Source: Fragilaria crotonensis (Eukaryota > Bacillariophyta > Fragilariophyceae > Fragilariales > Fragilariaceae). Taken from it: 20,163 bases of DNA. A program made the position numbers and the translations under genes. The notes below the pieces were generated by a model that worked only from the letters and a program-made list of their open reading frames with translations, did no database searches and was not told where the DNA came from. This document shows positions 1-19,126 of the stretch, piece by piece. The first letter of the stretch is position 1. Each line of letters begins with the position of its first letter. The DNA lies in assembly GCA_022925895.1 (NCBI GenBank), contig JAKSYS010000832.1, positions 1 to 20,163 of the forward strand. The letters are read 5' to 3'.

Positions 1-609
1 AATATGATGTACAGTACGGAGTACCATACCATAAAACTAGTACTGTAGTACCGCCGAACTGAAACAGTGGTAGGGAGCCCGTCTGGTGTCCCCTTTTCGA
101 GCCGGTCAATCTTTTATTTGCGTAGCTTCTACATCACTGTCTATACGAATACCATCCAGAGATGAGATTCTGGAGGTATTTTTTTATCCCATGAAAAGTA
201 CTTGTACATGGTTGGCTGATAACTGATAACGCATTTAATTTCACGAAGTCGATTTATTCAGAACGTTTGACCGGCTCGAAAAGGGGACATAGACGGGTAC
301 TTGTAGTGGAGTACAAAGTATTCGAGAGTCTGTGCAGTCTCCAACGCCTTGCAGGCACCCTGTTACCCTTTTACCTGCCGTACTCCATCAGTATTCATAT
401 ACTACCTGGTACTACTACCGGTAGTCATACGTCATACGGTAGGACGAAAGCAGGTCCACATAAATCCCCTCCCTCATGCGGTCATGCGGACCTCCCGACG
501 AGAGGACTACGGAAGACATTAGCTTCCAGTCTATTCACTACCCACTACGCCAGGACCAGCATAACTATCAGCACGGGTAAACTTCCTTATCACCTGGCTT
601 ACAACGAGT
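1..609. other. Intergenic region downstream of eIF5B
   Basis: No convincing gene. The open frames present here show no domain and have the composition of random translation. The stretch is rich in TAC, GTA and GTAC words, most obviously at 1-55 and 355-440, a texture that returns at about 15510-15960. It contains the long inverted repeat listed separately at 78-297. The eIF5B stop codon lies at 610-612, so 1-609 includes that gene's 3' flank. No polyadenylation signal can be assigned with confidence. Confidence 0.6.
78..297. repeat. MITE-like inverted repeat of about 31 bp
   Basis: Positions 90-109 read ccccttttcgagccggtcaa, and 267-286 is the exact reverse complement. The match continues outward with one length difference: 78-89 is cccgtctggtgt, and the reverse complement of 287-297 is cccgtctatgt. 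The arms are 157 bp apart, giving a 220-bp unit with no coding capacity. This is the form of a miniature inverted-repeat element. I could not find a clean target-site duplication beside the arms, so the family and exact ends are open. A smaller hairpin (ccaga/tctgg) lies inside near 153-173. A secondary structure without transposon origin remains possible. Confidence 0.6.
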
Positions 610-3600
610 TTAAATAATGTTGAAAACTTTCTTGAGCTTGACCACAAGGCGCCAGTCCTCTGTTTCCAGCTTGTCCTTGAAGTTCTCTTTTAATGCGTCA
701 ATTGAGGCACGGGTCAGAGTTGAATACAAGCTGTGGGAGGCGTCAAACTGACGGCCGTAGGTAATGTTTGGATTCGACTCGTTCACAATTTTGACAGCAA
801 CCGACATTCCCTTGCGAGCGGTATCTTGCTCTCGTCCGTTGCTCTCAATTGACATTACTTTGCCAACATGGAGACCACTAAGGGCAGGGACACACAGGGG
901 TGTGCCAACCTTTAAGATTCCTTCGACAACTTCGCACCCGACGATGATTGGATCCTTTTGATTGAAGACATGTTGTGGGAGAATCTTGATGATACTAGGG
1001 AAGACAGCGATCCTGAAGGATCATGATAGGAAAGGAGTGAGCAATACAACAGCAGCAGCGACGCCATCGCCAACCCGAATCTCACTTACTCAGCAGCTTC
1101 TGCACGTCTCTTTTCACTTAATTCATCCATGAATCTCGTAAATTGATCGAACAGATGATAGATGATGTCAGCGGTGAAAATTCTGACATTCATCTCCGCG
1201 GCATGTTCTCTGGCTTCCTTCTCGACCTCAACGTCGAATGCTAGGATGGTGGCAAACTCGGGCATGCCCTTCTCATTCATGATGGAAATCTTCGTCACAT
1301 CACGCTTGTGGACGGTTCCAATACCAATGGCACTGACAGGGATCGGCGGCTTGGTCTCTTCGCGCAAGAATTGTAATAGCGCCTCCAAGGCACCGAGAGT
1401 CGATGCTTGAACCCTGACACCCTTTTTGTCTGTGCTAAGCTTAGCCTTCAGCTCTGTCAAGTCCGACATGACTTCGGACTTAATATCTTCCTCTTCATCA
1501 TCAGGACCCACCACCATAACTGGTGTACCAGCCATTACCTTGTCTAGGTTGTTACCGATTACCTTGACACCAAGCGCCCCTTTCACCTTCTTGTGATGGA
1601 TGTACTCGGATTTGATGCGCATTTCACGACTGGGAGGGGGAGTAAGCAGCCCGCGAATTTCGGTGACAATGGGTCCATCGAGCGTGCAAAAGACAGCTTT
1701 ATCACCTTCCTTCAAGTACCCGTTCACGACAAGTACGTCCACCGTCATACCAAGACCATCGATAGCCTTGACTTCGAGTACGGTGCATTGAAGATTGGCG
1801 TGCCACATCAGCTCCTTCCACACCTTTTTCTGTGCCATTTGACATAACAGCAGAAGCACATCCTGAACACCTTCGCCGGTGACACCCGAAGTCGGAACTA
1901 ACGGAATAAAGTCAGTGCTCTCCCAGTCATCCTCTCCCATTTCCCAATACAAATTTGAATTAACTCCTTGTTCCATGAGTTGCACCTTGGCATCTTGTGT
2001 GCGGGAGCGGAACTCCTGTATGGTTCCCTCAGGTTGCTCCTTTAAGGCGTCGCGAATAGGCGTATCTTTGCACGTCTTCCACGCGTAACACCGATCGACC
2101 TTGTTCAAGGCAACCACGAACGGAACGTGGCGGGCAACCAACATGTTCAAACTCTCTATCGTCTGCTGCTCAAGACCGTGCATCAGATCGATGACCAGAA
2201 TGGCAACATCACAGAGCGAGGACCCACGAGATCGGAGGTTTGTGAAGGACTCATGCCCCGGTGTATCGATGATTAGCATTCCAGGCACAGTAATCTCGAA
2301 CTTCTCAGTGGCATTGAGTTTTTGTGTCTGAGTTTCTAACGTGGACTTCTCGAAGAATGTAGCGCCGATTTGTTGGGTAATACCGCCAGCTTCGCCTTCT
2401 TGGACATTTGTTTTTCGAATCTTATCTAGGAGGGTAGTCTTTCCTGTATCGACGTGTCCCATGATTACGACGACTGGACATCGAAGATCATCGCGAGAAC
2501 GAGCATCAAGGTTTGCTTTTTCTTGTTCAAGCCGTTTTCTTTTTCCCTCTACACGCTTCATTTCAACAAGTTGTGCCTGGTAGTTCAGCTCGCTCTGTGC
2601 CGCCTCCATCTCGGCACGCTTCTCAGCCTCGATTCTATCGCGCTCAGCACGCTCCAGACCAAGTTGTCGCAATCTCTCTTGTTCTGCTTTCTTTTCTTTT
2701 TCGATCAAGTCCTCGTCATCATCTTCGTTGATTGTGACCTTCTTGAGACGTTTCGTCAGATCTTTGAACTTGTCATCGTCACTGTCGGAAGCATCCCAAT
2801 CATCACCAGAGCCGTCGTCTGCGTCCCAATCGTCGGCATCGTCTTCCAATTCTGGCTTTTCATCTTCCATTTTCGAAACTGATACAGGCTTCACAGGTGC
2901 CTTGAGTGGCTCCACAGCGTCATCATCATCAGCTTCGTCCTCCCAGTCGTCTGGCGCGTCGTCCTCTTCCTGCTTCTTGGTTTCTTCCTGTTTACGTTGT
3001 GGCCCACGCCCCTTTCCTTTCTTTCTTGTCTCGTAGACTACTTTTTGCTTCTTAGGTGCCTCAACTTCCTCCGTCGATTCTCCTTGTTTCGCTTGGCCGT
3101 CTGTGGGAAGCATGCCGGCTAAGCGCATCGCTTCCAGACGCTGTTCCGTCAGCTTTGCCTTCTGCTTCTGAGCTTTGGTCATGTAGGTTCCTTCCTTCTT
3201 CTGGCGTTCCACCTTTTCACGTTGCTTTTGTTTCTTTCGTTCCCTTTCCTCTTCTCTCAAACGCTCCTCCTCTTCCTCCTTGCGGCGTTCTTCGTCTATT
3301 CGGGCCTGTTCTTCTTCTTGCAATTTTCGAATTCGTTCTTCTTCTTCTTGTTGTTTGCGGAGACGTTCGGCAACCAATCGACCGGCTGCTGATGGCTACA
3401 CGGAAAATCGTCATGCAAAAGCACATAGAGTCACACAAGTATGCAATGGATTAAGACACGCGAGGTTAGTTTCAACATCGTGGAAGTGGCATTATTGAAC
3501 CCATTCGCCACGACATGACAACAAATCTCACCTTTTTGGCGGCAGGAGCCTCATCCCCACCAGCCTTGTTGGCTGGCTTCTTCTTTTTCTTCTTCTTGTT

Positions 3601-6971: not shown

Positions 6972-9009
6972 TCATGTCGACTCTTTGGGTCCGTCTGGAA
7001 TAGGGGTCCATCCATCCAATCGATGTCTCCACTGCAGCATAACCAACATAACGAAACCTAGCCCAAAGAGGCCCGCCACGAGCGTCATGGGATGAACAGT
7101 GGGAGGAATGAAGCCCAAATCCGAAATCTTATCAGGCTGGTCGTAGAGGATGGGATCAAAACCTTGATGCGAAAGACAGTGAGGGCCCGTCCAACCTACA
7201 AAGCATTCACATTCCTTGCCTGGGCTGCATCGACCACGTTTGGGACCGCCGCAGGCACCTGCTGATTCATCGATCGCTTGCGTATTACAAGCTCCTCGCC
7301 CAGTTTGAATTCCTTTGAGGGGATGCACCTGTTGAAGGGAATGAAATAGTTAGCACACCAATGGCGAACACACGGGACAGTTTATAGGGAGCAAGACGTA
7401 CATCATCAGCAGTCTTGTAGAGCTTCTCATGTGCCTCGATAAATTTCCTTGTTGGTCGTTCAGGGGTAGAACATCCCACTTTTTGCATTTCGTTCGTTGG
7501 GTCTTGGTACACCCTAACCCAATTGATCTTGTACTCCGGCGGACCTTCAGCATTTGTCACCATATCACAGAAGCCTTCCGAGAAACCACATGTGTCTTGC
7601 CACCTCGTGGATCTACACCTATAGTTTTTGCATGGACAAGCGCCAGGGCATGTTCTGGGGAAGCCCCATTGTTTGGATACGGCGGTATTGAGGAGAATGT
7701 ACATGGGCTCAGATGAAATTTCTGATCCTGCGAGGATGGAAAAGTCAGTTATGATTCATCTGCTGCGGATGCATCATGACATTCATACGCGATATGCATG
7801 CTTACCTAAATCCGCCTTCACAACTCCGGTGCCATTAATGGATAGCACAAGCTCTCCGTCAAGGTACCATCGCAGATATCCATCTGTTTCATTCGATGGT
7901 AAGTCCCACTCTAATCGATAGACATGAGGCTTCGCGAAGTAGTCTGCATCCAGCTGTCGATTGAAACTAATAGCATCACTCCAATAATCCTGTCGCGCTG
8001 GATCGAATTCTCCTTTGAAGCTGTTGTAGTTGCCGTAGAAGTTAATATTCAGTGAAGAGTTTGCACCGCCCTTAAGCCCCTCATACCACTGTCCTGGTCC
8101 AGGCCAATTTCCGTCACCCGGTCGATTTGCCGGTCTACCGGGCGCCACTTGGTACGATGCGCTCATGAATGGTTGGCCGACGGATGATTGCAAAAAAGGA
8201 CCTTCATTTGCCCGCGTCGGTCCAGGTTGTACTTCAAATATGTCAATCTCTGGCGCCCCACGGCCCAGTCTCTTCTCCATCCCGTAGTGAGCAATGTTGG
8301 CACACCCGCTAATCAATTGCGCGGTCCTACTTTTGGTCGTGCACGTCGTTGAACTCCATGGCCACACGTGTTCAGATGAGGCAACGTAGGTGTGTCTGGC
8401 GAGGTTCCCCAGCATCCAAAACGCTGGCCAGAGTCCCCCAACGTCGTGTCGGCCCGGCAGGATGGCTTCGGCTTCGACAATACCGCCCGTGAAGCAAAAT
8501 TTATTCCAAGACTGTAACATGGCCGATCTAAAGTGTTTGGTAGTGTGCGTGTTCTGTCGTTTGACATCGTCATATCCAATGACACTAGTATCGGCAGCTT
8601 CTGTGGTAATGACAAGTTCACCATCGGCGTTGGTGACGGCATTTTGTGGACTGTAATAATGCAGTGCATCGTTGGTGTAATCGTTCTTATCGAGCGCAGT
8701 CCATCTAGGATCAGATCCATCTTCAAAGGTCCGACCGGGTGTGTTGAATTCATCCGAGAAAACAAGTTGAAACGTCTTGGTGGTGACGGTTGGTATAGCG
8801 GTGGGAGTTGAAGACGGTGACGCCGATGGATATTCGGTCCAGTTCGCGGTGATGTTGACAGGAGCACGTGTTGCTGAGGGTTTCGGATCGTTGCGGATTC
8901 TCGGTACATAGGAGTCTGTACTAAGAGCATCCAAGGGTGTGTCCGGGTCGATCCAATCCGCGGCGGCGAATGGCATTATCGCGAAACACAATATTCTTGC
9001 TCCCCTCAT
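6972..9009 (-). CDS. GH16 beta-glucan enzyme of the KRE6/SKN1 type, with EGF-like module and C-terminal anchor (three exons)
   Basis: Fungal KRE6/SKN1 relatives are needed for beta-1,6-glucan; diatom homologues are proposed beta-1,6-transglycosylases of chrysolaminarin synthesis. Exons: 9009-7806, 7727-7402 and 7328-6972 (introns 78 and 73 bp, GT-AG), 628 residues. The start is the ATG at 9009, which gives a signal peptide (MRGARILCFAIMPFAAADW); an upstream in-frame start at 9087 would bury it. The GH16 domain runs from about 80 (FQLVFSDEFN) to about 485, with the catalytic motif EIDIFE at 254-259 (nucleophile Glu, Asp, acid/base Glu). SEISSEPMYILLNTAVS at the exon 1/2 join is typical of KRE6/SKN1. 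Exon 3 adds a Cys-rich EGF-like stretch (about 523-561, CSPGKECECFVGWTGPHC) and a membrane segment (591-610) with an 18-residue tail. The topology predicted is type I, lumenal catalytic domain. Hydrolase versus transglycosylase cannot be decided from sequence. Confidence 0.9.
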
Positions 9010-9420
9010 GGTTTTGATTGGGTACGCGTATAAGATATTGCGGTTGCAAGATTCGAAGCTGTGAAGAAGGTAAACGCGTTGGCCCAACGATCAGGTTAAA
9101 GAAAGGGATCAGCTTGACCTTCGTAATCTCGATGAAAAATGAAGCGATTGGATCGAATCTACCTTCCGCGTACCTCTGTCACGCGTGGTCAAGACTTCGC
9201 GGACTTTGATTGGTACGAACGTCGTTGTTGCAATTGATTCTGCTGCGAATAGGAAGGGAAACCGCCTCCTCGTTATTCCTTGATAGATTCAGAACTACTC
9301 AAGTAGAAAACTGATGACAATGATCTACTGAGTACTCGTACTCAGTAACAATCATCAAGATTCAGAAGTTCAAACCTTCATGCATTTGATATGGGCATAC
9401 CAGGTGGTTTCAATTGGCGA
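9010..9420. other. 5' flank of GH16 gene, with hairpin
   Basis: Non-coding region upstream of the GH16 start. It contains a perfect inverted repeat: TACTGAGTAC (9326-9335) and GTACTCAGTA (9338-9347), two bases apart. The 10-mer agattcagaa occurs at 9285-9294 and again at 9358-9367, on either side of this hairpin. No gene is seen. The GC-rich retroelement appears to begin soon after 9420, so the GH16 promoter may be confined to this ~400 bp. Confidence 0.5.
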
Positions 9421-9432
9421 CGTGAGCCTTTG

Positions 9433-9558
9433 AACGTGTTGTCACGTTGCCCCGTTGCACTACAGACTTCATACCCACCCGTCAGCGGCAGCGTAGACGG
9501 AAGGGCGTCGAACCCGGACGAGCCAGCATCATGCGTCACCCAAAAGATTCGGTGACGC
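9433..9558. repeat. Hairpins in the 5' leader of the retroelement
   Basis: Two perfect stems: AACGTG (9433-9438) with CACGTT (9443-9448), loop of 4; and GCGTCACC (9533-9540) with GGTGACGC (9551-9558), loop of 10. They mark the structured, GC-rich beginning of the element. Role unknown. Confidence 0.45.
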
Positions 9559-9786
9559 GCTCGAATGAGTGTGACACGGCGACACGGCCCCGCCTAGTGG
9601 ACTACGTGCAAGCTACGGGAAAAAGAACATTTGGCACTTGAACAGAAAAACATCTATTCGCTCACGAGCTCATTGTTGGTCGAACCAGGTCCGAGGAACC
9701 AGTACGGCAACAAGGCGAGACGACTCGCAAGCTTCATCGAGGGACCTGCTACAAGTCAGGTGTACCGATAAAGCGAACACGATAGT

Positions 9787-9794
9787 TTTATAAG
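9787..9794 (+). promoter_or_regulatory. Possible TATA box for the retroelement
   Basis: tttataag lies 37-44 bp upstream of the gag ATG at 9831, in a region otherwise GC-rich. The position would suit a short-leader transcript, but no initiator can be confirmed. Confidence 0.3.
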
Positions 9795-9830
9795 GACACT
9801 CAGCGGGCACACAACACTCTGGTGAGTAAC

Positions 9831-12023
9831 ATGGCCCAGCTGGTTGACGAAGGAGCCGCTATCCCACACGGGGACGGGCATGATGTACCGCCGGTACCTC
9901 CACCCGTACCACGTACGTATCGCGAGTACTACGGGGACCGACGTAACAACCCTGCTCCCGAAAGGGTAGCGGGCTATCTGGCCGGTTACAAGTTTGCCGA
10001 TGCAGGAGGGGGAGATATACCCACACCGGCGGCTCTCAAGGATCAGACGGTGGCACTGAGTGATCGACAGCCTATGACTTTCTTGTGCATGGTGCCGGGT
10101 CTAGACGGTACTATTGGCGAGGTCACTGTTCTACACCGCTTTCTACGTTATGTTGATGCACCAGGGGACGACCCCTCCGGATATCATGATCGAGTGCTTG
10201 GTCTACTTGGGGACATTTTACCGCACCAATACCCCGTAGTGGAGGTACCGGGGTCTGCCTTCCATTTGGTTGGCACTTCAGTACGAGTTCCTACGGTTGC
10301 TGCGATGGATGCACTAATCGCCACATGGGAGGACCCTTCGGTCGCCTTGGGGCCGTACACAATGCAAGACCCCGAGACCGAAGTGGTGCGCCCTCGGCAC
10401 TTTCAACTTGTGCCAGGGCACCTAGCGGCCATACTCATTCACCGGCGACGAGTCAATGCAAAGATGGCGTACCAAGAACTGCTTGGAGCTATCCAAGCCG
10501 CAGACGCGTTCGATGCACACAGTGATGTCATTACCTGGCTGCGAGCAGCGTGCACCGCCCGAGGGGGTGGAGGTGCTCAGAATACGACTCCAAGCGTGGT
10601 CCAAACCTTTCTTCCCTTGCATCTACCTCCTGAAGTGTACACGTACGTCACAACCAAGGTGGAAAACGACATTCCGTCTGCCGCAGCCACTGGAGGAGGC
10701 GTGACCGAAGGGCACACCGAGGCACTCGCAGGAGCCATACGCGCCTTGACCGCCACGCGGCGGACGGGCGGGGCAACCGACGAAGGCGATGACGAGACCA
10801 AGACACCGAGAACCATCGTTGAGACCTATCGTGAGACCTACCGCACGCTCCTGCGGTTTGGGAATGTCACCAACGTAGAGGAGGTGGCCCCATTCTGGGC
10901 ACGCTTGGCCAGGTGCCACAAAAGTGAACAGCACACGGTATTGAGTCAGGAGTTCCAGAGAGTCTGCATGGCACGGGGACTGTCTACGGAGATTTACGTA
11001 CCCATCGTCACAACAACTCTCAAACAGATGGTGGTGAGCTTTCAGTTTGTCGGACATGGTCCAGACGACCTGGCATCCGGATGCCAGCCCTTTATGGTAT
11101 CCTATGCAGGAGAAGACAACCATTATGCGGCGCTAGCGGCGGCGAGCGTTAGCAATCAACTCGCACAAGGAGAGCAGAATGCCAGCCTTGCAGACTGGCG
11201 TTCACTGCGGGACCAAGAGAAGGTGAAATTCCCCCGAGATGTGGGGGATGTGTGTATTACTATGTACCGTTTCGCGGTGCTATGTCAAGTCCTATTCCAA
11301 GGGCTGGGCGATCCACACCCCCTGGTGGAGGCCATGTGGGCCACGGCGAGAGGCTTCCAGAACCTGGCTCCGTTTATTACCGCACGGTACCAATCCCTGG
11401 CTAGGACACCAGGCGTCTCACCCACATACTTCGCGAGAGTGCTCCGGGCTATACAGCTAGGAGTCCACGAGTACATGCAACAGGTATCAGTCAATGTCGT
11501 TGAAGGGCTAACTGGAGTGGAAGCGCCCATGTTCACCACAATGCTGCAAGAGCTGAAACGGGGCACCTTTCATCAGTCAACGAATTGGATTGCAATCCCC
11601 GACTCATACATGAACACATGGCCCACACCAGGAAACAGCGGAGGCAACAGCTATAGCGGCCGCAACGTCCCGGGCGGCGTATCAACCACAGCGTCCACAG
11701 TGCAAACCGGCGTTTCGTCCATCACCCAAGAGGGGAGCAGGGAGAGTGTAGCCCGGGTTGCAAACCCAACAAACGACACCGAGTTCACGTCGCTCACACT
11801 GCGCACGGGCGGTTCGCGAGGGATCATACGAGAGCACCCCCCACCTACCAACGACGACGGGCACGAATTCTGCGTGGCGTGGTGGACCCGGGGGGGCTGC
11901 TTCCCAAATTGCAGGCGACGCAACACCCATGCACCTTTCGCGTCTCCGGCCGAGCGCACACGTTTACTGGCGTACGTCCGCGAGCATTTGGTGGCCCCGG
12001 CGACCTCCCGATCTACTGCTTGA
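9831..12023 (+). CDS. Gag-like protein of DIRS-like retroelement
   Basis: 730 residues from the ATG at 9831; a GTG three codons upstream is in frame but not needed. The product presumably packages element RNA. There is no named domain over most of its length. Near the C-terminus there is a Cys/His knuckle: Cys 681, Cys 690, Cys 694 and His 700 (C-x8-C-x3-C-x5-H, core FCVAWWTRGGCFPNC), followed by a conserved-looking FASPAERTRLLAYVREHL. Such a cluster is usual at the end of gag proteins of these elements and probably binds nucleic acid. The ORF ends in TGA at 12021-12023, and the reading frame stays open beyond it into the reverse transcriptase. Confidence 0.8.
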   Translation: MAQLVDEGAAIPHGDGHDVPPVPPPVPRTYREYYGDRRNNPAPERVAGYLAGYKFADAGGGDIPTPAALKDQTVALSDRQPMTFLCMVPGLDGTIGEVTVLHRFLRYVDAPGDDPSGYHDRVLGLLGDILPHQYPVVEVPGSAFHLVGTSVRVPTVAAMDALIATWEDPSVALGPYTMQDPETEVVRPRHFQLVPGHLAAILIHRRRVNAKMAYQELLGAIQAADAFDAHSDVITWLRAACTARGGGGAQNTTPSVVQTFLPLHLPPEVYTYVTTKVENDIPSAAATGGGVTEGHTEALAGAIRALTATRRTGGATDEGDDETKTPRTIVETYRETYRTLLRFGNVTNVEEVAPFWARLARCHKSEQHTVLSQEFQRVCMARGLSTEIYVPIVTTTLKQMVVSFQFVGHGPDDLASGCQPFMVSYAGEDNHYAALAAASVSNQLAQGEQNASLADWRSLRDQEKVKFPRDVGDVCITMYRFAVLCQVLFQGLGDPHPLVEAMWATARGFQNLAPFITARYQSLARTPGVSPTYFARVLRAIQLGVHEYMQQVSVNVVEGLTGVEAPMFTTMLQELKRGTFHQSTNWIAIPDSYMNTWPTPGNSGGNSYSGRNVPGGVSTTASTVQTGVSSITQEGSRESVARVANPTNDTEFTSLTLRTGGSRGIIREHPPPTNDDGHEFCVAWWTRGGCFPNCRRRNTHAPFASPAERTRLLAYVREHLVAPATSRSTA

Positions 12024-14462
12024 CTGGCAGGCCAGGGTGAGGCCGACGCGCATCATCCACACGCGCACCACGCCCCACCCTGGCCAACGGAGCACCGGCC
12101 GGAGCCGGCGGGGCCCCCTCGGGGGACACCGACCATTGATCGGCCCAACAAGAAACAACGAACGACCGATATCTCGGATGCGGAGAGGGAGCTCGGTAAG
12201 TTAGCACAATGGTTTGCGGCACAGGTAAGCGCAAGGGGGTGGCAGGCGGTGGTACGGACGGCACGGGGACGTTCCCACGTAGCTACCATGGCAAAGAAGC
12301 TCCACCACAGAGCGGCCCGCCTACTGGGGCACCTCGGTGCACGAGGGGCAAGTGTCACGATGACGTCGGCCCCCTGGTCCGCACAACGCAACGTGCAAGC
12401 CATGCAGCGGGGCGCACACAAGTCGTCGCACGGCGAAAGGGAATTTGTCTGCACTGAGATGCTTGACTTCTGTCGGCAGGGGTACTGGATTGTTCTTCCG
12501 TACGACGCGGTCGCGGCGTGGCCGGGGCTACGCATCTCACCGTTGGGCGTGGTGCCCCAACGCGATCGCCGCCCACGCCTCATAGTGGACTATTCCTACT
12601 CGGGCATCAATTCCGAAACTTTACCTCTCGCTCCAAAGGAGGCCATGCAATTCGGCCGCGCCCTGCAGCGGGTAATGACCACCATTGTACATGCTGATTG
12701 TGGCCGCTATGGCCCTGTGTACCTCGCGAAGATTGATATTGCGGATGGCTTCTATCGTGTCTGGCTACAAGTGGCCGACATACCTAAGCTAGGCGTCGCT
12801 TTACCAACAGCGCTCGATTGCCCTCCACTAGTGGCCTTTCCTTTAGCGCTGCCCATGGGGTGGGTCGAGTCTCCACCCTATTTCACTGCACTCACTGAGA
12901 CCGCCTGCGACCTTGCGAACGCCGCACTACGCAGGCGCCCTGCTCCCCTACAACTCACGACGGCCCACCGGTTGGAAGCGGTGGCCAACACACCCCCCAC
13001 CGACGCGCCCGACGCCTCGTCGTGCTTCTCCACACGACGGAAGGGGGGCGACAACACTCACGTGAGTCCGGCAACCCTCCACCACGGACACCACCGCTTG
13101 CCCGTGGGAGCGGTCGACGTTTATGTTGACGATTTCCTCCTAATGGCTCAAACGCGCGCCCAACAACTCCGCGTGATGCGGGCGACACTCACGGGCATCG
13201 ACGACGTATTCCGCCCCCTCGAGTCGACGGATCCCGTTCACCGGAAGGAGCCGGCCTCTGTCAAGAAGATGTTGCAGGGTGACGCATACTGGTCCACCAA
13301 GAAACGCATCCTTGGGTGGGATGTGGACACAGCGGCAGAAACCTTGCATCTCCCGGCTCACCGCGTCGCCCGCCTGCACAGCCTGTTGGAGTTGCTCCAA
13401 CCCCCACGGAAACGCCTCCCCCTTCCGAGGTGGCAGCAACTCCTTGGAGAACTACGGTCCATGGCCCCTGCACTTCCTGGCTCCAAAGGCCTCTTCTCTG
13501 TCCTCCAGGCCGTGCTCAGCAAGGCCGATCGCCACCGCGTAAAACTCAACCGGCGCGTTTACGACGTCGCCACCGATCTTCGCGCACTCGTCGACGACCT
13601 TGCCCGGCGTCCCACGCGTCTCCGCGAACTTGTCCCGACGTCCCCGTCCGACGTCGGCGCATGCGACGCATGTCGTCGGGGCATGGGCGGGGTCTGGTTT
13701 GACGCGCTCGACCCCCAGTCCCCTCCCATTGTTTGGCGCATGGCATTCCCCTCGCACGTGGCGGACGCCTTAATCACCGCCGAGCACCCCCAAGGAACGT
13801 TGTCCATCTCCGACCTCGAGCTCACGGCGTTAATCGCGCACAAGGACATCTTGGCGCACGCCCGCGATATCGCGGAACGCACCCTCTGGATGGCGAGTGA
13901 CAACAGGGCCGCCGTGTCCTGGAGTGACAAAGGCGCCTCCACCTCCTGGGGCGCTCGCGCCTATCTTTTGCGGTACAACGCCTTGCACCAACGCCACCAC
14001 CGCTACGTGACACGCCACCACTACGTGCCTGGCCCCGTCAACGTTATGGCTGACGACGCCAGCCGTCGGTGGGATTTATCAAACGACGCGTTACTCACCC
14101 ATTTTAATGACACCTATCCCCAGGCCACCTCCTGGCAGCTGCAGACCCTGACACCCGACACCGTTGCCTCCTTGATTGGTGCGCTGTCCAAGACGCGTCC
14201 ACCACCAGGTGCTCTCCTCAACGCTCCGCCAATGCGGCAACGGCCTGGGACCTCTGGACGTCGTTCTGTGGCAGCCTCCGCATCCAACCCCGTCAATTGG
14301 GCACCTGGGATCCCGTCACTCTTCTCCAACTCTATGCCCAACGCTACCGCGACGGTTCCATTGCCCCCGGCCGTCGACCTGTTCGGGCTCGTACCGTGGA
14401 GGACGCCGTACGAACGGTGGGCCAGGCGTACACCCGCATGGGGTCCCCTGACCCTCGTTTGA
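12024..14462 (+). CDS. Reverse transcriptase / RNase H of DIRS-like retroelement
   Basis: Same frame as gag and open from the codon right after the gag TGA to the TGA at 14460-14462 (812 codons). The first in-frame ATG is at 12288. Before it lies sequence with domain-like character (DISDAERELGKL, RGWQAV), which in my recollection is shared by related diatom elements. This suggests that translation enters from gag. RT motifs in order: RRPRLIVDYSYSGIN, LAKIDIADGFY (first catalytic Asp), PMGWVESPPYF, and YVDD at 13122-13133. RNase H has its four acidic residues: Asp in GACDACRRGMGG, Glu in SDLELTAL, Asp in MASDNRAAVSW, Asp in NVMADDASR. The C-terminal ~120 codons overlap the recombinase frame and look like low-constraint sequence. 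Confidence 0.85.
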   Translation: MAGQGEADAHHPHAHHAPPWPTEHRPEPAGPPRGTPTIDRPNKKQRTTDISDAERELGKLAQWFAAQVSARGWQAVVRTARGRSHVATMAKKLHHRAARLLGHLGARGASVTMTSAPWSAQRNVQAMQRGAHKSSHGEREFVCTEMLDFCRQGYWIVLPYDAVAAWPGLRISPLGVVPQRDRRPRLIVDYSYSGINSETLPLAPKEAMQFGRALQRVMTTIVHADCGRYGPVYLAKIDIADGFYRVWLQVADIPKLGVALPTALDCPPLVAFPLALPMGWVESPPYFTALTETACDLANAALRRRPAPLQLTTAHRLEAVANTPPTDAPDASSCFSTRRKGGDNTHVSPATLHHGHHRLPVGAVDVYVDDFLLMAQTRAQQLRVMRATLTGIDDVFRPLESTDPVHRKEPASVKKMLQGDAYWSTKKRILGWDVDTAAETLHLPAHRVARLHSLLELLQPPRKRLPLPRWQQLLGELRSMAPALPGSKGLFSVLQAVLSKADRHRVKLNRRVYDVATDLRALVDDLARRPTRLRELVPTSPSDVGACDACRRGMGGVWFDALDPQSPPIVWRMAFPSHVADALITAEHPQGTLSISDLELTALIAHKDILAHARDIAERTLWMASDNRAAVSWSDKGASTSWGARAYLLRYNALHQRHHRYVTRHHYVPGPVNVMADDASRRWDLSNDALLTHFNDTYPQATSWQLQTLTPDTVASLIGALSKTRPPPGALLNAPPMRQRPGTSGRRSVAASASNPVNWAPGIPSLFSNSMPNATATVPLPPAVDLFGLVPWRTPYERWARRTPAWGPLTLV

Positions 14463-15250
14463 ACCCCCACGGGCTCGTCGATTATCGCCTGACCTCCTTG
14501 TACCGCGCGTGGCAACGGGCCGATGATCCCCCTTCCCGAGTGAAGCCCCTGCCCCTGTCCTTGGTGTCTCAGGTGTGGCAATACGCGCATAACGCCTCTC
14601 CCCATGCCACAGCGGCGGCCGAGTGCCTCGTCATCGGCTTCTATTTCCTTTTGCGTCCCGGTGAGTATTTGGGCCGCCCCGGCGCCACCCAATTCCGTTT
14701 ACGCGATGTTCGTTTCTGGATTGGCAATCGCGCTTTGGATCACTTCACCTGCCCGCCTGCCGACATTCTTGCCGCCACTTTCGCGACCTTAACCTTCACA
14801 CGCCAAAAGAATGGCGTTCGCAACGAAACTGTGGGTCATGGCCGCTCGGGCCATCCCACCCTTTGTCCCGTCCATTGTCTGGGCCGTCGGGCCTTAACCC
14901 TTCGTGCGGCGGGGGCCACCCCTGACACCCCCTTGAACGCCGTTCGCGCCGCCCCTAACGCCTCGTGGACATATGTCCACCCCTCCGACCTCACCTCCCA
15001 CCTGCGGGCCGCCCTGCACCTTCACCCGGACCCAGCGTATACACTTCACGATGTCTCCATCCGGTCTACTCGCGCCGGCGGTGCCATGGCACTACTGTGT
15101 GCCGGTGTTGACAGCGACCGCATACGTCTCGTCGGGCGCTGGCGCTCTGACGAGATGTATCGTTATCTCCATGTGCAGGCCCAGCCGGTCATGACCGGCC
15201 TTTCTGCCGCCATGCTTCGCGGCGGCTCCTTCCGCCTGACACCTGGCTAA
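14111..15250 (+). CDS. Tyrosine recombinase of DIRS-like retroelement
   Basis: Would integrate the circular DNA copy by site-specific strand exchange. The frame is open from 14111 (after TGA 14108-14110) to TAA at 15248-15250, in the -1 frame relative to RT/RNase H and overlapping it by 352 bp. The first ATG, at 14438, would remove the N-terminal DNA-binding part (RPVRARTVEDAVRTVGQAY). Expression by frameshift or splicing is therefore likely. Catalytic residues visible: Arg in FYFLLRPGEYL, the second box around SIRSTRAGGAMALLCAG, GRWRSDEM with Trp in the usual His/Trp place, and the Tyr in YRYLHVQA. In the second box the usual His of H-x-x-R is Arg (R-S-T-R). The family call is firm; the start is not. 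Confidence 0.82.
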   Translation, partial: HLSPGHLLAAADPDTRHRCLLDWCAVQDASTTRCSPQRSANAATAWDLWTSFCGSLRIQPRQLGTWDPVTLLQLYAQRYRDGSIAPGRRPVRARTVEDAVRTVGQAYTRMGSPDPRLNPHGLVDYRLTSLYRAWQRADDPPSRVKPLPLSLVSQVWQYAHNASPHATAAAECLVIGFYFLLRPGEYLGRPGATQFRLRDVRFWIGNRALDHFTCPPADILAATFATLTFTRQKNGVRNETVGHGRSGHPTLCPVHCLGRRALTLRAAGATPDTPLNAVRAAPNASWTYVHPSDLTSHLRAALHLHPDPAYTLHDVSIRSTRAGGAMALLCAGVDSDRIRLVGRWRSDEMYRYLHVQAQPVMTGLSAAMLRGGSFRLTPG

Positions 15251-16378
15251 TCCCACCCGCCCCCTTGGGGCTCCCACCCTAACTTGCCTTTGGCCCTGAG
15301 GGCCGCACAGTACGGTAGGCACCACCACTAACCGGTGGCGCTACCGCCCCGTGGAGATGAAGGGTACGGTAATCCTAGTAGGGTTGTCATTACCCCCATC
15401 AGTATGCCATCTAGCACACTAACGATTCAAACACAGCGCACTAGCTGGCGACCGTAACGTCAAGCAGCCGCTGAGGCGGGAAAGCGTATGCATCCCGCCG
15501 AATGAAATCTGTGACGTACTACGGTAACACTTTACGCACGAGTATGGCATCGTAAGTATGAATATTCATGTTGTCTGCATCCTGTACCTGGTACATGTAT
15601 GTCATACCTGGTACAATGTACCGTAATCAGGAGTATCCCGTATCCGGTACTTGTATCCCACATAATCAAAATGCACCGCAAATTCAAACGTCGTTCAGTA
15701 CTGACTACTGACACTGCGTCCTGCTACAGTACTACGAACGGTTCGGTGTTCGTAGTGCACTACTGCAGGATAAGGCCTGATCCTATGCAATATGCATACA
15801 TGTTCATACTGTATTTGCACTATAGCTGGTATATGCACGTTAAATATGTCGTACTATGCGTGTACTCTAGTATACGTACTAGGTACTATTCTACAACTAC
15901 CTGCTGGTGCTGTACGCTTATGATTTATGATACAAGAACTACATGTATGAATACTACATTTCGCATTTCACGAATAAAAGGAAATCAACGACTACGGGCC
16001 TACGCGAGCGTAGAGTTCTCTACTGTACCAACGACCGTAAACATCCAAATACGTCTGGCCGTCGCTTGGAATGTCAAGATCCATCATCCATTGCTTGATG
16101 GAAATGGGAAATGATGTTATGTGTCGATGTAATAGATCCATTGATGACACAAAACTTCCCTCAAGTTTCGAGAACAGGCAGCCTTCATTATTAGACTGCA
16201 TCCCGTGAACCGAACCGAGGCACCTCCCTCTGTCCGAGCATCCTACATTCTTAAACAGTGCACCGGCGCCATAAACAGAACGATACAACTACCGAGGGAT
16301 GCAGCTGCTGTCCCGTACTGCAGTCAGAAGTAAAGACCCTGAAACAAGTAGCGCTATAGGTCGTCCTTGAGTCTTTCC
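15251..16378. other. 3' tail of retroelement and intergenic region before TrhO-OMT
   Basis: 15251-15520 is GC-rich and hairpin-forming: GGCCC (15292-15296) with GGGCC (15300-15304), and ggcggga (15475-15481) with tcccgcc (15493-15499). It is probably the untranslated 3' end of the element. From about 15510 to 15960 the base texture changes sharply to TAC, GTA, ATAC and GTAC words without a fixed repeat period. An open frame of 171 codons here has the Tyr/Thr/Val composition expected of that texture and no domain. 15970-16378 is ordinary intergenic DNA that should contain the promoter of the next gene. Confidence 0.55.
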
Positions 16379-19126
16379 ATGAACCCATCCAAGTCTCTGC
16401 TCTTTGGACATTCGTTGTTGTCGGTACTGTCAAAAACGCTGCTGACTTTACTCTTGATGGCAAACCCTGCACACGGATTGAATCACATGCTCGGAGTCCG
16501 TTGCTCAGCTTTTCGCAGATTTTCTCGACCAGTTTATTTATCCATGACCAGGATTCCTTCCAATGAAGAACTAGTCGCCCGACGTTTGGAGGTGGCACGT
16601 GAAAAGAAACTAGCTCGGCGGCAAGCAATTCAGGAGTCGCATGATCGCAACATAAAATTCAAACGCATGCTCCATAGCGACGCGAACTCATCACAGGGCG
16701 AAGGCTTTCAAATACCGAGTCTTTACTCTCTTAAGCTGTCGGTTTGCCCAGAACTTCGAGATGAACTCAAGTTGAACGGAAGAGAAAAGAGAGGGCGAGT
16801 CTTTGTCGAAATGGGGAGCGACGCGAGCCGAACGTTGAAGGGTCTCAAGATGGAACTTCACTCCTTCTTCCGAGTCTTGCGGAAGAGCAGTTACCTTCTC
16901 GAAGCGACAATTCCAAAGGTCGACGACAATGGATTGATCGTTAATGATGTTGATGTCTGGAATGATCTGAATGATGCGTGGAAGATTGAATCAGATCAGG
17001 ATGTACTTCGGACATTTTCGGCTGCGGACGAGTTTTTCGAAGCCCATCAGGACAAGCTGAAACGTCCATCATTGCTCCTGTACGTAGCCAAAGACCCCAA
17101 TGCACCTCCTCCGGAGCCCAGCCCCACCTATCTGGAGAACTTGCCCGATCCAGCCGCCACAGAGTCGATGACCATGCTGTCATTCTACGCATTTCCGCCC
17201 GATACTATCAGAAATCCTGAAGACTTTGCGGTGAGTTTGAGAAAATTGTGGAAACCCTTTAATGCCTTGGGCAGAGTCTACGTTGCACAAGAGGGTGTCA
17301 ATGCCCAAATGAGTGTCCCAACGAATGTGTTGGAAAATTTCATGGAGTGCTGCCGCTCCGTTCCAGAGCTCGGCGAATGGATGGAAAATGGAGTTAATGT
17401 TGATCCAAAACCTTTGTCAGTGGAGGAATTCGCCACCGCAGGCGTCCCTGTCAACGGAAAACCTGCACCTCCCTTCCGAAATCTTCACATCAGAGTCCGA
17501 AATCAAGTTGTTGCCGATGGTCTTGACAAGCCCTTGGATTGGCAGTCGGCAGGGTATGACATGCCGCCCCTTGAATGGCACGAGAAGTTAAAGGAGGCTC
17601 GCGAGCAGCAAGAAGCTGGACTGTTGGCTGCTCCTATCCTCCTTGATTGTCGCAACAAGTACGAAACAGACGTTGGACGCTTTGAGTTGGCCGAACCGTT
17701 GGGTACGGAAAACTTTCGTGAGAGCTGGGATGTCATAAGGGAACGTCTCGCCGATACCCCAAAGGATGCTCCTATTATGATGTACTGCACTGGTGGTATC
17801 CGATGCGTCAAGGTGGGTGCCTACGTGACACAAGAACTGGGCTTTACGAATGTGAGTCGATTGGCGGGAGGCATCATCGCCTATGATCGAACGTTAAGTG
17901 AGAAGGCTCCTGATTCAGAACCATTGTTCAAGGGAACAAACTTCGTCTTTGACGGACGCCTGGGACGTCCCATCACCGAGGACGACTTCGGAAATTGTGT
18001 CACATGCGGTTCCGAAACGTCGTTGGTGAGTAATTGCTTGAATGACAATTGTCATCAGCGCATGATTCAGTGTGAAGCGTGCAAGGCGACCTTTTATGGC
18101 GCCTGTTCCGATGCATGCAAACAACGTATCATAAATGGAGGCATGATTCCACGCATGAGTGAGGCTACGGACCAACAAGCGAACATTGCTTCTGAATCAA
18201 GCGAGGTCATCCGTTTTGAAAATTTGGAAGAGTACAGTTCCGGTCACTCGTCTCCACCACCGTCCTTTTTTCGTGAGGTTGAATTCAACACGAAGCAATT
18301 CATGCCAACAGGGGCTCATATGGTGTCCGGAGCTGCCCAGGGTCGATGGTTGACACAGTTGGCCTCCATGACAAGGGAAGGTCGTATCTTGGAATTGGGC
18401 ACTTTCACTGGGTACGCCACGGCCTGTTTCTTGGAGGGTGCCGCCAACGCCGGCTTTGCTGTAGGATACTCTGGGGTGGGTGGACGAGATGGTGGTCCGT
18501 TCGTCATGTCACTGGAACGCGATGCGAGAGCTATCAACATCGCAGTGGCGCATCTCCGCGTAATGGCTGAAAATGGGGTGTCAGAGCAAGGAGCCGAGGC
18601 AGCCTGTGCACTGCGAGTCAGCGGCAAAGATCTTCCCGTGGTTGTTGAAGATAGCGTGACATTAGCCTACAATGGAATCGCGGGATGTGAAGTGATCCGA
18701 GTTACCGATGCTCTCGCGACTGTCGAGGCCATGGTCGCTGGCACGGGAGAGCTCAATCCGGCTCCCTTTGATATGGTTTTTGTGGACGCTGACAAAACTC
18801 GTCTACTCGAATATGCAGAAGCTCTAATCAGCAACGATCGTATCCTGAAAAGGGGTGGGTTGATTGTTGTGGACAACGTCTTGTGGAAAGGCTTGGTGCT
18901 GGAAGCTAATACAGGAGAGTTCACGCCAGATAATGATGACAACGATAGCAACAGCGGCAGTGATGATGATGGTAGCAACAATGACGGCGCAGCCCGCAGG
19001 GGTCGTCGCGCGCGTAAGCTAGCGATGAAGATGCACAAGTTCAACAGCGCGATCGTCAAAGACACTCGCGTTGAGGTGGTTGTGCTGCCTATGCGAGATG
19101 GTCTGAGTGTAATTCGAAAAAGGTAG
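16379..19126 (+). CDS. TrhO-type tRNA uridine hydroxylase fused to a TrmR/CCoAOMT-like O-methyltransferase
   Basis: One uninterrupted ORF of 915 codons. The start is the ATG at 16379; a TTG four codons upstream is rejected. Residues 1-33 resemble a signal peptide (LLTLLLMANPAHG) followed by a basic, Ser-rich stretch (to about 60), suggesting plastid or other organelle import. Residues ~110-240 are an unrecognised domain. ~264-330 match the TrhO N-terminal domain (RVYVAQEGVNAQMS). ~418-505 are a rhodanese domain with LLDCRNKYETDVGRFE and the catalytic loop CTGGIRC (Cys 470, Cys 476). ~521-581 carry FVFDGRLG and eight Cys as in the TrhO C-terminus. ~627-915 are a class I SAM methyltransferase: motif I ILELGTFTGYA (670-680), metal ligands Asp 803 (VDADK), Asp 832 and Asn 833 (DNVLW), C-terminal PMRDGLSVIRK. 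Bacterial TrhO makes ho5U34 with O2; bacterial TrmR, of this methyltransferase family, methylates ho5U to mo5U. The combined activity is inferred. Confidence 0.88.
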   Translation: MNPSKSLLFGHSLLSVLSKTLLTLLLMANPAHGLNHMLGVRCSAFRRFSRPVYLSMTRIPSNEELVARRLEVAREKKLARRQAIQESHDRNIKFKRMLHSDANSSQGEGFQIPSLYSLKLSVCPELRDELKLNGREKRGRVFVEMGSDASRTLKGLKMELHSFFRVLRKSSYLLEATIPKVDDNGLIVNDVDVWNDLNDAWKIESDQDVLRTFSAADEFFEAHQDKLKRPSLLLYVAKDPNAPPPEPSPTYLENLPDPAATESMTMLSFYAFPPDTIRNPEDFAVSLRKLWKPFNALGRVYVAQEGVNAQMSVPTNVLENFMECCRSVPELGEWMENGVNVDPKPLSVEEFATAGVPVNGKPAPPFRNLHIRVRNQVVADGLDKPLDWQSAGYDMPPLEWHEKLKEAREQQEAGLLAAPILLDCRNKYETDVGRFELAEPLGTENFRESWDVIRERLADTPKDAPIMMYCTGGIRCVKVGAYVTQELGFTNVSRLAGGIIAYDRTLSEKAPDSEPLFKGTNFVFDGRLGRPITEDDFGNCVTCGSETSLVSNCLNDNCHQRMIQCEACKATFYGACSDACKQRIINGGMIPRMSEATDQQANIASESSEVIRFENLEEYSSGHSSPPPSFFREVEFNTKQFMPTGAHMVSGAAQGRWLTQLASMTREGRILELGTFTGYATACFLEGAANAGFAVGYSGVGGRDGGPFVMSLERDARAINIAVAHLRVMAENGVSEQGAEAACALRVSGKDLPVVVEDSVTLAYNGIAGCEVIRVTDALATVEAMVAGTGELNPAPFDMVFVDADKTRLLEYAEALISNDRILKRGGLIVVDNVLWKGLVLEANTGEFTPDNDDNDSNSGSDDDGSNNDGAARRGRRARKLAMKMHKFNSAIVKDTRVEVVVLPMRDGLSVIRKR

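Follow-up and report, generated by a model that had tools for sequence, protein, structure and literature searches.

A TrhO-methyltransferase fusion gene of the diatom Fragilaria crotonensis, predicted to encode a one-protein 5-methoxyuridine synthase of organelle tRNAs

The main finding from this study is that a single gene of the diatom Fragilaria crotonensis joins a complete TrhO architecture to a family-3 O-methyltransferase, and we consider it likely, judging from the sequence, that its product is a one-protein synthase of 5-methoxyuridine at tRNA position 34 (mo5U34) serving organelle tRNAs. The gene lies in the window, by which we mean the whole stretch of 20,163 nucleotides analysed, in a genome assembly of 62.1 Mb and 881 contigs. 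According to this prediction, the TrhO part would hydroxylate U34 to ho5U34 using O2, and the fused metal- and SAM-dependent methyltransferase would convert the ho5U34 hydroxyl to mo5U34. The substrates would most likely be organelle-encoded U34 tRNAs for NYN four-codon boxes (Ala, Pro, Thr, Val and Ser), and the compartment would perhaps be mainly the plastid. Both activities, the order of the steps, channelling between them and the compartment are what we infer from the evidence below.

Table 1. Features of the fusion gene, in nucleotide positions of the window and residues of the predicted protein
Feature	Nucleotides	Residues	Strand	Basis
Whole ORF, TrhO-methyltransferase fusion	16379..19126	915 aa plus stop	+	translation and Pfam
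Presequence, possible organelle targeting	16379..16549	1-57	+	hydrophobic core, then basic stretch
Long helix	16562..16696	62-106	+	AF2 model
Conserved N-terminal domain, predicted PB1-like / beta-grasp fold	16718..17095	114-239	+	slice model
UPF0176_N, acylphosphatase-like	17171..17509	265-377	+	Pfam, 56.5 vs cut-off of 26.2 bits
Rhodanese domain	17591..17884	405-502	+	Pfam, 29.2 vs cut-off of 22.2 bits
CTGGIRC active-site loop	17786..17806	470-476	+	translation, alignment
Rhodanese_C, Cys-rich	17930..18121	518-581	+	Pfam, 59.5 vs cut-off of 26.9 bits
Disordered linker joining the halves	18143..18205	589-609	+	AF2 model, pLDDT <50
Family-3 (Methyltransf_3) O-methyltransferase	18212..19123	612-915	+	Pfam, 88.7 vs 22 bits
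Motif I, E-GTFTGY, presumed SAM binding	18392..18415	672-679	+	alignment; role presumed
Presumed metal-site Asp803	18785..18787	803	+	alignment; role presumed
Presumed metal-site Asp832-Asn833	18872..18877	832-833	+	alignment; role presumed
Basic cluster R876 R877 x R879 K880	19004..19018	876-880	+	follows long insertion loop; resembles TrmR KRRRRL

Translation of the open reading frame gave zero internal stops across 915 residues, and the Pfam search agrees with the translation that a TrhO part is followed by a family-3 methyltransferase, as the initial annotation had read it. All four domain matches lie above their curated cut-offs. Three of them assign the protein to the UPF0176/TrhO superfamily, while the fourth, together with the Asp...Asp-Asn metal site, assigns it to Methyltransf_3; motif I we take to bind SAM, and Asp803, Asp832 and Asn833 to form the metal site, as in family-3 enzymes. 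The TrhO architecture of that annotation also stands, but the TrhO part occupies the chain from roughly residue 260 onwards. Ahead of it come a presequence, a long helix and, at residues 114-239 or so, a distinct domain kept in the homologs, all of which had been overlooked. The fold of this domain came from a model of the slice, the fold search with the whole model having left it uncovered. Because a Pfam search of the slice with HMMER filters on gave no family, PB1 included, at E<=10, we call it a predicted PB1-like fold. AF2 confidence is low over the presequence.

The gene fusion is real and conserved, and is not an accident of the gene model. A protein search returned 217 homologs, and precomputed domains place both Rhodanese_C and Methyltransf_3 in 115 of the 120 best that are listed, the remaining five (P0092, P0100, P0107, P0110 and P0116) being without Methyltransf_3. 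Seven of these 120 are MMETSP transcript ORFs marked complete; both halves are present in every one, and three (P0057, P0088 and P0108) have a shorter N-terminus. Most of the 120 rows name no organism. Named diatoms among them are Amphora, Seminavis, Nitzschia, Cylindrotheca, Fistulifera, Thalassiosira, Stephanocyclus, Epithemia, Mayamaea and a Psemu1 model, and the named bolidophytes are Triparma, so that the single-chain fusion first read in the window is kept in both groups, with single transcript ORFs of relatives spanning the two halves. The window's protein sits among the diatom rows in three trees, and beside Seminavis with support in one. Since diatoms and bolidophytes fill the named organisms in all three protein searches (the best 120 of 217, 3711 and 331), a spread of the fusion beyond these groups rests on the published report considered next (PMC6599085). 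The sole named exception among the listed homologs is P0075, given as Alexandrium, a dinoflagellate, in EukProt, and we suspect misnaming or contamination behind this label.

The fusion is already known, and the window's gene is a further member. It had initially been taken to belong to no described eukaryotic system, which does not hold, for in 2019 Sakai et al. put a yceA-trmR fusion into print for Phaeodactylum tricornutum, Phytophthora sojae and P. ramorum, miscalling the three 'bacterial species' and using the fusion as a clue to TrhO (PMC6599085). It takes up one sentence there, plus a figure legend, with no assay in the section concerned; in that fusion too a single gene holds the two domains, the named species include a diatom, and our likening of the two is by description only. 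The same authors suggest an xo5U-type modification in eukaryotes on the strength of how widely trhO homologs occur (PMC6599085), and a 2023 abstract describes ho5U derivatives as specific to bacterial tRNA (PMC10516636). Human TSTD2, a relative of TrhO, is without known function according to a passage of one review (PMC10135228), and in a table of a survey on coconut, ho5U is matched to TrhO-like plant proteins, of which one is predicted to be in the chloroplast, with no fused methyltransferase mentioned in the passages concerned (PMC10298058). Among the open-licence papers listed by our literature searches, none studies the fusion protein or reports mo5U from diatoms or oomycetes. New here are the survey of conservation, the placement of each half among its relatives, the bacterial co-occurrence, the lack of CmoB and TrhP matches in the draft genome, and the PB1-like domain.

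TrhO (YceA; YbfQ in B. subtilis) is an O2-dependent tRNA U34 hydroxylase, to which the fusion adds an N-terminal region of about 260 residues and the methyltransferase. In the loop of E. coli TrhO the first Cys, the Thr, the second Gly and the Arg are essential in the experiments reported (PMC6599085), and the fusion has a CxGGxR loop with these residues. Across 121 aligned rows, namely the window's protein (P0001) and the 120 listed homologs, the corresponding C470, T471, G473 and R475 are unchanged in every row. R372 (121/121) and R374 (120/121) lie on a strand that may match that of K112 and R114, the basic beta-sheet residues of TrhO for tRNA, where the E. coli numbering is transferred by offset and analogy only. 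The presumed metal residues of the methyltransferase half are nearly invariant: 117 rows have a residue at the position of D803, which is kept in 116 of them, and D832 and N833 are kept in 115/115. In the basic cluster R877 is kept in 116/116, R876 in 113, R879 in 114 and K880 in 109 rows.

Both halves of the fusion have their closest sampled relatives in Bacteroidota. In a tree of 48 rows the TrhO half joins a subset of Bacteroidota TrhO proteins (100/99) and C475, a short paralog from the fusion's own genome. Outside this group stand the B. subtilis and alphaproteobacterial TrhO proteins, a further Bacteroidota set and five more UPF0176 genes of the window's genome. This tree was built without seven alphaproteobacterial TrhO rows (L065, L070, L071, L074, L087, L088 and L089, near-copies among these). 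Besides the fusion, the genome has six UPF0176 genes. The fusion methyltransferases form one clade (100/100) in an 86-row tree and join Bacteroidota O-methyltransferases there (96/81), with plant CCoAOMT, SAR11-type methyltransferases and Bacillota TrmR all apart from them; bacterial ORFs below 200 aa (L043, L055 and L074, 3 of 63) were excluded. The placement was the same (95/81) in a second tree of 81 rows, from which 16 rows of the first had been removed and to which 11 extra Bacteroidota methyltransferases, drawn from genomes with the nearest TrhO, had been added. One of the 16 rows removed was C339, a very distant row of the first tree and, apart from the fusion, the sole Methyltransf_3 match listed for the genome. 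Among the bacterial TrhO proteins sampled, the nearest are likewise from Bacteroidota. However, few phyla were sampled in the TrhO tree (Cyanobacteria and most others lying outside it) and some of the branches are long, so that we treat the origin of both halves in Bacteroidota as a lead suggested by the sequences rather than a result.

The methyltransferase trees bear directly on which known enzyme the second half resembles. Clustering with plant CCoAOMT (1sui, 5kva), named beforehand as the outcome that would speak against an mo5U enzyme, did not occur, since plant CCoAOMT is separate in both trees and is rejected as origin by the AU test (p 0.00339, or 0.0034 when rounded). A SAR11-type origin is not favoured, with an AU p of 0.056 that is borderline and does not reject it. 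As the initial annotation had it, this half belongs to the same family-3 group as TrmR (YrrM), the tRNA ho5U34 methyltransferase, but both trees set Bacillota TrmR apart, and a grouping of the fusion with TrmR (B. subtilis TrmR and 8k1f) has an AU p of 0.238, so that kinship to Bacillus TrmR is on present sequences neither shown nor rejected. TrmR forms a separate clade and has DAAK where the fusion has DADK, and the insertion loop is much longer in the fusion. The closest clade, family-3 enzymes of Sphingobacterium, Mucilaginibacter, Marinoscillum and other Bacteroidota, consists of stand-alone proteins. A ten-row alignment shows HMxSGxxQG and RDGL common to the fusion and two Bacteroidota rows, and the basic cluster missing from these two as well as from one CCoAOMT and two SAR11-type rows. 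We know of no Bacteroidota family-3 O-methyltransferase whose function has been tested. Pontibacter actiniarum is listed with trmR in the part of Sakai et al. concerned (PMC6599085). The insertion loop of TrmR is described as becoming ordered upon substrate (PMC6543040), and the assignment of the basic cluster of the fusion to that loop is our own placement.

In bacteria the two functions are found as separate genes. Among 63 bacterial loci collected by search with the methyltransferase half, trhO lies directly downstream of the family-3 methyltransferase gene in eight, all of them SAR11-type or other Alphaproteobacteria, and where the locus extends further the genes upstream of the pair look like gatA and gatB. 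The other 55 have no trhO within the stretch examined, some of these ending at a contig edge; L061, an alphaproteobacterial locus with full flanks, has no trhO beside the methyltransferase gene. Genomes with such methyltransferases had TrhO at E below 1e-13 in 13 of 15 cases, with one weak match (2.2e-4) and one without any. Among 198 Bacteroidota genomes, 103 had both genes, 22 the methyltransferase only, 7 TrhO only and 66 neither (Fisher p 4e-25, a value that ignores shared ancestry), at thresholds of E<=1e-12 for the methyltransferase and E<=1e-15 for TrhO that were chosen after the lists had been seen. All 11 Bacteroidota genomes chosen for the nearest TrhO had a methyltransferase match.

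Several other explanations of the gene have to be weighed against the predicted synthase. The disordered linker could be taken to mean that two adjacent genes were read as one, but the junction without a stop and the seven complete transcript ORFs largely refute this, and we can hardly credit such an artefact. The rhodanese fold is known mainly for sulfur transfer. The rhodanese half might accordingly be a sulfurtransferase, or dead as a hydroxylase, with the protein acting otherwise on RNA, and the score of 153.2 bits against the NCBIfam TrhO equivalog NF001133, under the cut-off of 170, agrees with this in that the fusion is filed in the wider superfamily and not as a TrhO equivalog. We nevertheless regard it as highly improbable, given the four essential loop residues unchanged in 121/121 rows, the complete architecture from UPF0176_N to Rhodanese_C, and a TrhO-tRNA structure as the top fold match. 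Less easily set aside, though still unlikely in our view, is that the TrhO half makes ho5U34 while the methyltransferase half modifies something else, such as a catechol-like small molecule or another RNA site, the fusion then serving co-regulation or targeting. Family-3 methyltransferases are broad, and the related Rv0187 is reported to methylate catechols and ho5U in free form but to show no significant activity once ho5U is part of a tRNA (PMC6543040), so that the family-3 fold by itself does not reveal the substrate. The position of this half with Bacteroidota enzymes rather than TrmR also fits another substrate, as does a structure comparison in which many small-molecule O-methyltransferases score equal to or above TrmR. 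A profile search that placed TrmR (5zw3) 32nd among 45 PDB sequences counts against the predicted synthase, as do the bacterial loci without trhO beside the methyltransferase gene, which make up most of the 63. Against another substrate stand the covalent link to TrhO in 115 of the 120 listed homologs, the SAR11-type pairing of family-3 methyltransferase and trhO genes, the near-invariant TrmR-like basic cluster and the rejected kinship to plant CCoAOMT.

The synthase reading further depends on which product and which compartment the genome allows. Six-frame searches of the draft assembly gave no match to CmoB (PF08003), which was found in 6 of 14 control genomes, and none to peptidase-U32/TrhP (PF01136), found in 8 of 14, with the reservation that a gene may have been missed in a draft. 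With neither found in the draft genome, mo5U rather than cmo5U is therefore the expected end product of ho5U made by TrhO-type genes. One contig carries Photo_RC genes and another cox1 in pieces. In about 23 of 150 kb examined, the plastid contig has U34 tRNAs for Ala-UGC, Pro-UGG, Thr-UGU, Val-UAC and Ser-UGA, and the mitochondrial contig, in 69.6 of 108 kb examined, has Ser-UGA, Leu-UAG, Ala-UGC, Val-UAC and Arg-UCG; further isoacceptors may be found in the rest of both.

Either organelle is thus a possible compartment, and the same chemistry located mainly in the mitochondrion, in both organelles or in the cytosol is a tentative alternative that we take seriously while leaning towards the plastid. 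Diatom plastid presequences are bipartite, with a signal-like core followed by a basic stretch low in acidic residues. In 74 rows the REKRGR-type motif is preceded by 95 aa or more. A hydrophobic core that resembles a signal, with a mean hydropathy >=2.0, is present in 41 of them, and the 40 residues after this core contain on average 1.0 acidic and 5.6 basic residues in the 41. The motif [ASGCT]F follows the core in 19 of the 41, a modest excess over the 11.2 expected by shuffling. This pattern weakly fits the bipartite plastid type and speaks against a main site outside the plastid. On the other side, 33 of the 74 rows fall below the threshold, and the window's protein is one of them because its core, moderately hydrophobic, reaches a mean of 1.9, just short of 2.0; the mitochondrial U34 tRNAs point in the same direction. 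Oomycetes, moreover, are not known to have plastids. Their reported possession of the fusion (PMC6599085) means that the plastid is not its only home across the group, and dual targeting of tRNA enzymes to plastid and mitochondrion is among the findings described for diatoms (PMC4494062).

The fusion provides a concrete and genetically testable case for the stated idea of a eukaryotic xo5U-type modification. Phaeodactylum, a named carrier of the fusion, is a diatom in which proteins have been fused to GFP (PMC4494062). A single nucleoside, mo5U, is expected as the product, with no more than a few organelle tRNAs as substrates. If the predicted synthase is true, it would help explain how organelle U34 tRNAs read four-codon boxes, and it would be another case of two successive tRNA-modification steps in one chain. 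We are about evenly divided on the broader proposal that diatoms, and probably other stramenopiles, have a single enzyme making organelle mo5U34, assembled in a eukaryote from two Bacteroidota-type genes and a PB1-like domain. One protein would then both write and seal a wobble mark so far described as bacterial, and a eukaryotic mo5U system would be described for the first time. A defence-system reading was also tried and set aside, its one weak PADLOC match (mad2, E 2e-6, in the methyltransferase region) being taken as a general match to the SAM fold.

In addition to the fusion of TrhO-type domains with a methyltransferase, domain search identified another fusion in this genome (locus L009), in which a single open reading frame of 922 amino acids joins TrhO-type domains to an RNA pseudouridine synthase. 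Besides the TrhO-methyltransferase fusion gene, the genome carries six UPF0176/TrhO-type genes (L002, L004, L006, L009, L010 and L011). In a tree of the TrhO half with 48 rows, five of the six form a single clade separate from the fusion. The nearest paralog of the fusion is L002, in which domain search found no Rhodanese_C match. Extra domain matches below threshold were detected in L011 (RRM, 19.4 against a cut-off of 20.7), L006 (CCCH finger, 18.5 against 25.8) and L004 (MIB_HERC2, 23.2 against 33.5).

In bacteria, a family-3 O-methyltransferase gene lies immediately 5' of trhO at eight loci (L048, L060, L065, L068, L070, L071, L074 and L076), all from SAR11-type and related Alphaproteobacteria, and gatA/gatB-like genes precede the pair wherever the locus extends that far. 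This gene order suggests that the methyltransferase-trhO pair of these bacteria is a candidate mo5U operon.

Features located in the window and at locus L009
Feature	Location	Strand	Score (cut-off)
SKN1/KRE6/Sbg1-type beta-glucan synthesis-associated protein	window 7783-9087	-	172.6 bits (30)
GC-rich region with three large ORFs	window 9822-15250	+	
L009 ORF: UPF0176_N, Rhodanese, Rhodanese_C, then RNA pseudouridine synthase (PF00849)	contig C875, 3354-6122	+	PF00849, 82.6 bits (26.8)

Lying some 1.1 kb 5' of the fusion gene, the GC-rich region is possibly a retroelement of the DIRS/Ngaro type. Its second large ORF gives a reverse-transcriptase match below threshold (E 0.026), and its third carries a motif that, by eye, we take to resemble a tyrosine recombinase. 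No repeats of at least 25 bases were found within 9300-16378 of the window.

Among the 120 protein homologs listed of 217, a full fusion (P0075) bears the EukProt label of the dinoflagellate Alexandrium tamarense, which may reflect a misnamed diatom, contamination or transfer.

On the 108-kb mitochondrial contig (C880), cox1 matches are split into four pieces across about 14 kb, and equal-scoring tRNA matches, the first being tRNA-Lys, appear six times at 69.5-75.7 kb, a pattern of putative introns and a putative tandem repeat.
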